A stretch of DNA of 64,000 nucleotides from Arthrobacter sp. zg-Y844 (GTDB lineage Bacteria > Actinomycetota > Actinomycetes > Actinomycetales > Micrococcaceae), in contig NZ_JANFLS010000001.1 of NCBI RefSeq assembly GCF_024385465.1, positions 1,178,001 to 1,242,000 on the forward strand, in the 5' to 3' direction. This document shows, piece by piece, positions 5,747-16,248 of this stretch. Positions within the stretch are counted from its first letter, which is position 1; each line of letters opens with the position of its first letter. The notes under the pieces were generated by a model. The model worked only from the letters and a program-made list of their open reading frames with translations, did not search any database and was not told where the DNA came from. A program made the translations under genes and the position numbers.

Positions 5747-7831
<2,085 letters not shown>

Positions 7832-14449: not shown

Positions 14450-14471
14450 CGTCAATCCGGGAGTCCCAGCA

Positions 14472-15332
14472 ATGTCATATGGTGTGCCGGCCGAGGTGCC
14501 GGCTTCTCAGGTGCCCGTGTGTCCCCGCCATCCGGACCGGGTCAGCTACATCCGCTGCCAGCGCTGCGGGCGCCCTGCCTGCCCCGAGTGCCAGCAGAAC
14601 GCTGCAGTAGGCGTCCAGTGCGTGGACTGCTTCAACCAGCAGCGCAAGACCCAGCCTGCCTACCGGACTCCCTTCGGCGGGCGCGTCGCCCCGGGCGGAA
14701 AACCGGTAGTGACCATCACCATCATGGCGGTGTGCGCTGTGGCCTACGTGCTGCAGCTGCTGCTGCCGGAATTTACGCGCACTTTCTTCTACGCACCCGT
14801 GCTGACCGATTATCAGCCGTGGCGCCTGCTGACGTCAGCGTTCCTGCATTCCCAGGGCAGCCCCATCCACATTGCCTTCAATCTCTACGCCCTCTGGTTC
14901 CTGGGCCGCAGCCTGGAGCCCTTGTTCGGCCGCGTCAGGTTTGCCCTGCTGTACCTGATCTCCGCCTTGGGCGGCTCTGTGGGCGTGATGTACCTGGCGG
15001 ATCCCGGTGTGGCCGTGGTGGGCGCCTCCGGTGCCGTGTTCGGCCTCTTCGGCGCCCTGTTCGTGGTGATCCGGCAGCGGCAGGGCGAGCTGCGTTCGCT
15101 GCTGATCCTGCTGGCGGTGAACCTGGTCCTTGGATTCGTGGTCCCGGGGATCGCCTGGCAGGCCCATGTGGGCGGACTGATCACGGGTGCAGCCTGCGCG
15201 GCCATCCTGGCCTATACACCCAGGGGAAAGCACCGCACAGCCATTCAGTTTGCCGGGCTTGCGGGAGTGGTGCTGGTACTCGTGGTCGCGGGTGTGCTTT
15301 GGCAACCTCCGGCGCAGATTATCCCCGGGTAG
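14472..15332 (+). CDS. Rhomboid family intramembrane serine protease with N-terminal zinc motif
   Basis: The 286-residue product cleaves substrates within the membrane. Residues ~17-56 hold a B-box-like zinc ribbon: CPRHP, then YIRCQRCGRPACPEC, then VQCVDC. Six to seven membrane helices follow from about residue 75. The catalytic dyad is Ser186 in GASGAVFG and His232 in WQAHVGG. The loop-1 region contains FNLYALWFLGRSLEPLFGR. The frame is open further upstream, but the ATG at 14472 gives the normal actinobacterial length. The zinc-ribbon-rhomboid fusion next to a cyclophilin gene is common in this group. The physiological substrate is unknown. Confidence 0.93.
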   Translation: MSYGVPAEVPASQVPVCPRHPDRVSYIRCQRCGRPACPECQQNAAVGVQCVDCFNQQRKTQPAYRTPFGGRVAPGGKPVVTITIMAVCAVAYVLQLLLPEFTRTFFYAPVLTDYQPWRLLTSAFLHSQGSPIHIAFNLYALWFLGRSLEPLFGRVRFALLYLISALGGSVGVMYLADPGVAVVGASGAVFGLFGALFVVIRQRQGELRSLLILLAVNLVLGFVVPGIAWQAHVGGLITGAACAAILAYTPRGKHRTAIQFAGLAGVVLVLVVAGVLWQPPAQIIPG

Positions 15333-15357
15333 TCCCCGGGATAAGACATCGACTTGC

Positions 15358-15384
15358 GTGCCCGCCGTCACTGACGGCGGGCAC
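15358..15384 (+). terminator. Hairpin after rhomboid gene
   Basis: GTGCCCGCCGTCA and its exact complement flank a single C, giving a long GC-rich stem. It is followed by AGATGTTTAA and lies 25 bases after the rhomboid stop codon. Confidence 0.75.
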
Positions 15385-15478
15385 AGATGTTTAACGCCCG
15401 CCGATCTCTGCGGCGTGTCTACCCGTTTAGCCCGGGGTGCCGGGACGAAGCCCCCGGGGAGCTCCGGGCACCCGAAAG

Positions 15479-15696
15479 TTATCCACAGGGATACCCACAG
15501 TGTTAATAACCTACATCGTTGTAATTTTCGTGCCCGGCCGCTGATCCACAGGGTTATCCATAGGCTGAACGGAGTTACACACATGTAATTCCACAGGTGT
15601 GGATAACCTCCTTCCCTTTATTTGCAAGGAAGTTGTCGAAGTAACCCACAGAGTTTCCCACACCTGTGGATAACTCCGTGCACAACCTGTGAACAA
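15479..15696. other. Second DnaA-box cluster, oriC-like, between rhomboid gene and crgA
   Basis: The gap 15333-15791 has no gene but holds a dense cluster of DnaA-box 9-mers. Three are exact: TTATCCACA at 15479, TGTGGATAA at 15598 and TGTGGATAA at 15665. Near matches include ATACCCACA at 15491, TGATCCACA at 15542, TTATCCATA at 15554, AATTCCACA at 15587, TAACCCACA at 15642, TTTCCCACA at 15654 and TGTGAACAA at 15688. AT-rich segments (TGTTAATAACCTACATCG at 15501 and CTTTATTTGCAAGG at 15615) lie among the boxes. The density is equal to that of oriC. Possible roles are DnaA titration, regulation of initiation, or a former or auxiliary origin. Confidence 0.8.
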
Positions 15697-15732
15697 CGTG
15701 GAAAACCGGGGATAGCGGTCGTCAGGGCAAAG

Positions 15733-15770
15733 AAAAAGGCTTCCCGGCGCCAAAACGGCACCGGGAAGCC
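15733..15770 (-). terminator. Terminator of crgA
   Basis: Read on the - strand, GGCTTCCCGG and CCGGGAAGCC form a 10-bp stem extended by three inner pairs, followed by a TTTTT run (AAAAA at 15733-15737). It is 22 bases after the crgA stop. Confidence 0.85.
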
Positions 15771-15791
15771 CGAGGTACGAACGCCGGAACG

Positions 15792-16043
15792 TCAGCGCCA
15801 GCGCGTCGTCATCAGGAAGCCCACAATCGCGATGCCAAAGCCCACCAGGATGTTGCTGGCACCGAAAGCCGGTACCGGGTACTCGCCCTGGGTGATGTAG
15901 TACGTGATGATCCACAGCAGACCGAGGATCATCAGGCCGAACATGACCGGCTTGTACCAAACAGGGTTTTCCTTGGGCACTGACGCAGTCTGTGCGGGGG
16001 TTGCGGGGCGGGAAGGCTTCTTGCGGGATTTGGACTCAGGCAC
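15792..16043 (-). CDS. crgA: Cell division protein CrgA
   Basis: CrgA is a small integral membrane protein that, in mycobacteria and Streptomyces, interacts with FtsZ, FtsQ, FtsI and other divisome parts and coordinates septation. The 83-residue product has a basic Ser/Pro/Lys N-terminus, a first membrane span at about 30-51, a short outer loop with GEYPVPAFG, and a second span at 60-80 ending in TTRWR. Length, topology and the location next to the sortase/pkn block are all typical. The gene is divergent from the sortase gene. Confidence 0.93.
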   Translation of the reverse strand: MPESKSRKKPSRPATPAQTASVPKENPVWYKPVMFGLMILGLLWIITYYITQGEYPVPAFGASNILVGFGIAIVGFLMTTRWR

Positions 16044-16248
16044 GGATCCTCCTAGCGGAACCGGCTCTGCAGACGCCGGTGGTTGTAGTCATGGGCCGGG
16101 ACGACCAGATCCCGAGCACGAGAAGTCTCCTTCAATGCGCGGACCTGTTAGGGTCATCCCTATTCTGATTATCCTAGCGAATTCCGCGGCCAAGCTGTCC
16201 CGGGTTCCCTGAGGCCGTGAAATACCGGTACCAGCCAAAAGGAGAGCG

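Follow-up and report, generated by a model that had tools for sequence, protein, structure and literature searches.

A 64,000-nucleotide stretch of the Arthrobacter sp. zg-Y844 genome (contig NZ_JANFLS010000001.1, positions 1,178,001 to 1,242,000; hereafter the window) carries a dense cluster of DnaA boxes in the non-coding gap between a rhomboid-family protease gene and the cell division gene crgA. Two palindromes within this cluster are near-consensus matches to the operator of the MerR-family repressor McdR (ResR, Rv1830). The crgA-adjacent cluster is conserved far beyond the Micrococcaceae. At about even odds, the gap is a DnaA-control site gated by McdR, which would couple the initiation of replication to division. 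Binding of DnaA at the gap is well supported by analogy with mycobacterial data; we infer that McdR binds there as well, that the overlap of the two sites affects DnaA, and in which direction it does so. The original prediction had proposed a DnaA control site 13 kb from oriC, and this is supported because the cluster is conserved in the Micrococcaceae and beyond and because its mycobacterial counterpart is a published DnaA site, in vitro and in vivo; it had missed the McdR-like palindrome and the published precedent.

The gap is 459 bp long and flanked by convergent genes, the rhomboid gene ending at 15332 on the plus strand and crgA occupying 15792–16043 on the minus strand. Between them lie a hairpin 3′ of the rhomboid gene, the DnaA boxes and the crgA terminator, in that order. 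The central ~220 bp hold three exact boxes (TTATCCACA), two boxes with one mismatch and seven with two mismatches, the last of these ranging over 15491–15705; an extra two-mismatch match at 15319 lies inside the rhomboid gene. A box scan confirmed the three exact boxes originally predicted, at 15479 (plus strand), 15598 and 15665 (both minus strand), and the accompanying weaker boxes are present, although nine were counted where about seven had been given. The cluster is lower in GC than the window (48% against 65%), and its boxes are as dense as those at oriC. The window as a whole has 25 matches to TTATCCACA with at most one mismatch against 4.3 expected (standard deviation 2.2), and none of 100 shuffles reached 25.

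In the whole genome (3,370,572 bases) TTATCCACA occurs exactly 17 times, and a reversed control pattern three times. Three of the 17 lie in the rhomboid–crgA gap, two at oriC between dnaA and dnaN, and two upstream of dnaB; the other ten are isolated, in that any 250-bp segment within ~1.5 kb of them contains two or fewer boxes of at most one mismatch. The expectation that the gap would rank among the top few clusters held, since the gap, oriC and the region upstream of dnaB are the only exact-box clusters of the genome, a count of exact boxes only that allows for one-mismatch clusters elsewhere (a scan at one mismatch gave 243 places, of which about 100 were listed). A fourth cluster, in the rpmH–dnaA gap, consists of weaker boxes without an exact TTATCCACA; seven one-mismatch TTATCCACA boxes are found there at 160–396 of the window, possibly for dnaA autoregulation. 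The cluster upstream of dnaB, a gene identified from an open reading frame (ORF) in L200, spans 6747–6877 of that stretch (C1:1131746–1131876), has three exact TTRTCCACA in 250 bp and matches a published mycobacterial DnaA site.

The density of boxes, equal to that at oriC, and a low-GC 50-bp stretch (36% at its lowest in the gap, 32% at oriC) would be compatible with an auxiliary or relict replication origin, another of the roles first suggested. Such an origin is highly improbable. The genome has its standard oriC elsewhere, between dnaA and dnaN, the conserved core of the gap consists of boxes and operator, and no DnaA-trio-like run of four was found in the gap, the same scan giving just one short run at oriC itself.

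For the closest comparison, the window was aligned with ten of 28 relatives from the genus, chosen for short gaps, two of the ten differing very little from one another. Invariant in all ten are the three exact boxes, the pair of weak boxes next to the one at 15479 and the palindrome core at 15575–15588; the other weak boxes are 0.79–1.00 identical and the second palindrome (15511–15524) 0.77. The corresponding identities are 0.45 for the left flank, 0.55 and 0.68 for two spacers, 0.75 for the right flank and 0.83 for the terminator. Each of 29 genus genomes, the window's own included, has the palindrome pattern together with three or more exact boxes within 1.3 kb downstream of crgA. A search of these 29 for same-strand exact-box pairs at most 30 bases apart gave one match, ~80 bp downstream of crgA in one genome (G001).

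The wider Micrococcaceae set comprised 80 named crgA loci, mostly from Arthrobacter and its kin, with a rhomboid gene within reach in 59. Conservation of the cluster between rhomboid and crgA was borne out, as all 59 gaps hold at least two exact boxes and 51 hold at least three. In 31 of these loci more than 1 kb separates the two genes; the other 28, with short gaps, all have two or more exact boxes, and 23 of them have three or more. On the other side of crgA, the 800 bp upstream lack exact boxes in all 80 loci, and no locus has more than one one-mismatch box there. Several loci (L011, L013, L039 and others) have ~2 kb between crgA and rhomboid, with DnaA boxes within. One entry (L024, WNZI01000003.1), titled Vibrio cholerae strain 35D, has an Arthrobacter-like crgA, rhomboid and DnaA-box gap, and the assembly looks mislabelled.

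McdR represses whiB2 and recognises the motif AATnACAnnnnTGTnATT, according to the available text of PMC9040748. With a 4-bp spacer, the two best matches to this motif in the 64-kb window are those in the gap, at 15573 (one mismatch) and 15509 (two mismatches); neither is perfect. A strict form of the palindrome, TNACACNNGTGTNATT, was found at 21 distinct places in 20 genomes, 16 of which have one or more: nine sites are downstream of crgA, nine upstream of a WhiB-like gene and three elsewhere, one of these three in L209. A perfect TTACACGCGTGTAATT is present in the window's own genome (C4:179713–179728, L201) upstream of a whiB2-type gene, that is, a WhiB-like gene with the CAQTDPEAFFPEKGGS signature, taken as whiB2; a palindrome also stands upstream of such a gene in L202–L208 and L210. 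A pattern search of 20 genomes placed a gene for a MerR-like protein with a nearly invariant recognition segment next to the BFN-domain gene in 17, and inspection by eye added an 18th; the 17 include the window's genome (G000) and four from outside the class. The G000 protein matches Pfam MerR_1, and NCBIfam gave no match above cut-off. From gene order, this gene is the presumed Rv1830 orthologue.

The BldD box, TNAC(N)5GTNA (available text of PMC4151990), does not fit the gap palindromes, which have six bases between half-sites, a spacing difference of one base. In a mycobacterial-type genome (L209, near 3244), a McdR-like palindrome and, after it, a DnaA-like box lie next to a molybdopterin oxidoreductase-type gene, possibly a second composite.

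The palindrome and the boxes have a fixed geometry. In an alignment of 26 loci, selected for showing the pattern, palindrome TTACACNNGTGTAA comes first, followed by TT and a forward weak box (core TCCCCA or TCCACA) that abuts or overlaps the palindrome, then by a weak and lastly a strong box (TGTGGATAAC), both in reverse orientation. The window shows this order on its minus strand (15526 to 15475), where palindrome and weak box share 1 bp at 15509. In one family (f3) the unit points the other way relative to crgA in all four genomes checked, so it behaves as an autonomous DNA site. Another box order beside the palindrome is found in some families (e.g. L185, L191, L195), which were excluded from the model.

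That model, R1, was built from the 26 sequences, none of them from the window's family, and its E-values are rough. On the window's own genome, ranks 1, 2, 4 and 5 fall in the gap, rank 3 at oriC and rank 6 upstream of dnaB; rank 9 is a palindrome on another contig, upstream of a whiB2-type gene. The best match in the window is modest (23.1 bits, E 1.8e-4), many other families reaching 40–58 bits. At a lenient E of 0.1, R1 matches 280 of 296 class genomes. Where the best match and the place of crgA are both listed (69 class genomes, a set that favours strong matches), the best genome-wide match lies 2–264 bp past the crgA 3′ end in 63; of the 43 that did not serve for training, 37 show this. 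For a further 71 genomes the best match is listed and the place of crgA is not. Four of the six exceptions are 9–10 kb away, one is 1.6 kb downstream and one is on another contig. Across 198 genomes of the phylum, 84 match at E ≤0.001, 73 of them outside the class; 20 of these 73 were inspected, and 16 lie 2–376 bp downstream of a crgA-like ORF, with one of the remaining four stretches running out at a contig end and three without a crgA-like ORF.

The class was also surveyed directly in 60 crgA stretches, two of them from the window's own family. Counts refer to 58, leaving out L163, where tblastn found no crgA, and L171, a placeholder of 10 bases. One or more boxes with no more than one mismatch are present in the gap, or in the first 600 bp where no rhomboid gene was found, in 55 loci. 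In the 400 bp that follow crgA, an exact TTRTCCACA is found in 37 loci, the palindrome pattern TnACAnnnnTGTnA in 31 and the two together in 24. The 23.2 kb just downstream of crgA in the 58 loci contain 54 exact boxes and 33 palindromes, and the other 760 kb contain 15 and one.

Passive titration, in which the boxes would soak up DnaA soon after fork passage and the palindrome would be unrelated or a pair of weak boxes, had been suggested originally. Dense boxes 13 kb from oriC, three of them exact and all doubled early in replication, would suit this role, as would a palindrome half that is a two-mismatch DnaA box. Four loci read in another family (f25) each have three exact boxes in the gap and a palindrome that is at best diverged, which fits a sink; f25 genomes may alternatively use a diverged form of the unit. 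However, a sink needs boxes rather than fixed geometry and leaves the palindrome unexplained. Here the palindrome pattern reaches ~1000 times its density in the DNA around it at the same loci, it is fixed next to the first weak box, and it recurs upstream of whiB2. Titration is a possible role for the gap and, with the DARS- or datA-like action considered below, a main rival of the preferred reading, yet as the whole explanation it is unlikely.

A precedent exists in mycobacteria, where DnaA has been mapped in vitro by IDAP-seq in M. tuberculosis and by chromatin immunoprecipitation sequencing in M. smegmatis, together with electrophoretic mobility shift assays (Hicks et al. 2020, PMC7738170, here and below as far as its available text goes). 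Five DnaA regions were described: oriC, rpmH–dnaA, dnaB upstream, Rv0010c–Rv0011c and Rv3843c–RVnc0040. Four of them correspond to the four box clusters of the present genome, Rv3843c–RVnc0040 lying outside the comparison. For the Rv0010c–Rv0011c site, the authors report no obvious correspondence in other species. The gap shares with it the position beside crgA (Rv0011c) near oriC, the cluster of DnaA boxes at the crgA 3′ end and a palindrome beside the boxes at a fitting position, and is a probable crgA-adjacent DnaA site of this type; it differs in that its genes converge and in having two palindromes and three exact boxes. In M. tuberculosis, convergent changes in clinical isolates fall, all but one, in a palindrome 65 bp upstream of Rv0010c (PMC7738170). 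All four loci checked from one genus of mycobacterial type have a start codon, three times ATG and once GTG, 66 nt after a McdR-type palindrome, a spacing not found in two loci from other genera of that family. The palindrome of these four loci would then be the one 65 bp upstream of Rv0010c.

That DnaA binds to the mycobacterial counterpart was thus already known. What is new relative to Hicks et al. is that the palindrome is matched, at the level of sequence, to the McdR operator, and that the unit is traced through the phylum. No literature joining McdR or ResR with DnaA or the crgA site was found in the available text of PMC9040748, PMC10336103, PMC13308281, PMC9574059 and PMC9579286; earlier priority is possible.

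As McdR is a transcription factor that represses whiB2, DnaA and McdR could instead regulate transcription of crgA, of the rhomboid gene, of the mycobacterial downstream gene or of a small gap transcript, and in mycobacteria the palindrome, 65 bp before Rv0010c, might influence the promoter of that gene. Against this, the window's genes converge on the gap, no promoter-like site was found in 15200–16200, and a terminator separates crgA from the cluster. With the inversion of the unit in f3, and with Rv0010c and Rv0011c expression unchanged in M. tuberculosis dnaA mutants (PMC7738170), this explanation is improbable.

In E. coli, datA and DARS2 are built from oriented boxes plus a partner site. 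The gap might by analogy be a DARS- or datA-like site that alters the nucleotide state of DnaA, with McdR in the role of IHF or Fis; the fixed orientation of the boxes, the partner site and the preserved geometry speak for it. No report was found of nucleotide exchange or hydrolysis activity at any actinobacterial site, and this reading seems quite unlikely. Clusters of DnaA boxes near oriC are also said to occur in Streptomyces coelicolor, where H69, H24 and D78, around oriC, were reportedly proposed in J Bacteriol in 2006 to restrain initiation; one of the three may be the crgA-gap locus. Like the gap, datA, DARS1 and DARS2 are non-coding DnaA-box platforms outside oriC with sites for partner proteins (cf. 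PMC4585315); the gap differs in its likely partner, McdR rather than IHF or Fis, and in lying 13 kb from oriC. The operator at whiB2 has the same palindrome AATnACAnnnnTGTnATT, found here upstream of whiB2-type genes too, but is a repressor site around a transcription start (available text of PMC9040748), whereas the gap site stands between two gene ends and is attached to DnaA boxes.

The preferred reading, control of DnaA gated by McdR, may be put as follows. The gap would be a non-coding platform of ~220 bp, 13 kb from oriC, where DnaA gathers next to a dimer of McdR. DnaA would occupy the strong boxes and spread over the weak inverted ones, and occupancy by McdR would change the amount or the activity of the DnaA held there, an effect expected because the palindrome abuts or overlaps the outermost weak box. 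As to direction, we favour a site that holds initiation back and a McdR that lifts this restraint. High McdR would then repress whiB2, giving less division, and free DnaA, giving more initiation, so that both would be set by one regulator. Overproduction of McdR in M. smegmatis raises the ori-proximal copy number and the expression of dnaB and dnaN and represses division genes (available text of PMC9040748), which fits relief of a DnaA brake.

Several points weigh against this proposal. The raised origin copy number may be indirect, via blocked division. M. tuberculosis mutants in dnaA and in the Rv0010c–Rv0011c site have longer cells and an unchanged initiation rate (PMC7738170), so that a simple brake on initiation is unsupported. 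Hicks et al. interpreted the palindrome of mycobacteria as a pair of DnaA-like boxes (PMC7738170), and half of one palindrome in the window does score as a box with two mismatches, so the McdR and DnaA-box readings overlap. McdR DIP-seq gave five peaks, of which the available text of PMC9040748 names three, without crgA-site binding among these. ResR has 113 candidate motifs at 100 M. tuberculosis genes (available text of PMC10336103) and thus possibly many targets. HigA2 has been reported to bind the M. tuberculosis Rv0010c site, and its search motif, ATCAC(N)4-7GTGAT, overlaps the mycobacterial form of the palindrome. Judged from the motifs, McdR is the preferred candidate, since the forms found outside mycobacteria agree with its published motif and the other place where the palindrome recurs is whiB2; HigA2 is a possible ligand in M. 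tuberculosis.

The conservation itself is also incomplete. Among the 21 Micrococcaceae loci set aside, the available DNA has at least two exact boxes in ten, one in nine and none in two. Three of the 58 class loci (L153, L172, L176) lack any box of at most one mismatch, and the strict palindrome is found in just 31 of the 58, with an exact box in 24. R1 has no match at E 0.1 in 16 of the 296 class genomes (ten from f25, five from f23, one from f21), and the f25 genomes with a match (10 of 27 lack one) are weak, the best at 1.0e-5. The choice of the 26 training loci for their pattern, and the leaning of the 69 genomes towards strong matches, count here too.

The features of the gap are collected in the table. 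The AT-richer spacer reads CCCTTTRTTTGCAAGGAA in most relatives and is possibly a further protein site. Rfam gives three tRNAs in the window and no structured RNA in the gap, and no parS site was found in the 64-kb window with up to three mismatches allowed.

Table 1. Features of the rhomboid–crgA gap and its flanking genes (positions in the window; identities and counts refer to the ten aligned relatives)
Feature	Position	Strand	Remarks
Rhomboid-family membrane protease gene	14463–15332	+	Pfam Rhomboid 9e-33; start codon uncertain
Perfect 13-bp inverted repeat 3′ of rhomboid, probable 3′ hairpin	15358–15384		Relatives keep the repeat, letters vary
Composite element: McdR/ResR-like palindrome, then DnaA boxes weak, weak, exact	15475–15526	-	Model R1
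Exact DnaA box TTATCCACA	15479–15487	+	Same in 10/10
Two-mismatch DnaA box ATACCCACA	15491–15499	+	Same in 10/10
Two-mismatch DnaA box TTATTAACA, 1-bp overlap with McdR-like operator	15501–15509	-	Same in 10/10
Candidate McdR/ResR-like operator	15509–15526		2 mismatches in 12 fixed positions; core (15511–15524) identity 0.77
Two one-mismatch DnaA boxes	15542–15550, 15554–15562	+	Identity 0.87, 0.98
Candidate McdR/ResR-like operator	15573–15590		Best of all matches in the 64-kb window, with 1 mismatch in 12 fixed positions; invariant core at 15575–15588
Two-mismatch DnaA box, left half of the 15573 palindrome	15575–15583		Box scan
Exact DnaA box, part of a second palindrome-plus-box arrangement	15598–15606	-	Box scan, R1, alignment; identity 1.00
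Conserved AT-richer spacer	15607–15636		Mean identity 0.89
Two two-mismatch DnaA boxes	15642–15650, 15654–15662	+	Identity 1.00, 0.94
Exact DnaA box	15665–15673	-	Same in 10/10
Two two-mismatch DnaA boxes	15688–15696, 15697–15705	-	Identity 1.00, 0.79
crgA intrinsic terminator, 16-pair stem, T-rich tail	15737–15771	-	Between crgA and the box cluster
crgA, cell division protein	15792–16043	-	Pfam CrgA 3.3e-30

To our knowledge, actinobacteria lack several of the DnaA regulators of E. coli and Bacillus, which raises the question of how they time initiation. A broader and more tentative proposal, which we hold at somewhat short of an even chance, is that a replication–division switch beside crgA operates throughout the phylum, in which McdR and DnaA compete for or share overlapping sites and the repressor of whiB2 sets the availability of DnaA; such a switch is perhaps as old as the Actinomycetota. 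If it exists, the convergent mutations in the M. tuberculosis palindrome would act through McdR instead of, or besides, DnaA boxes. It would also give a common reading to two mycobacterial lines of work, on the cryptic DnaA site at crgA and on the McdR/ResR–WhiB2 loop. With a short, phylum-wide element and a named candidate partner, the question of initiation timing becomes directly testable.
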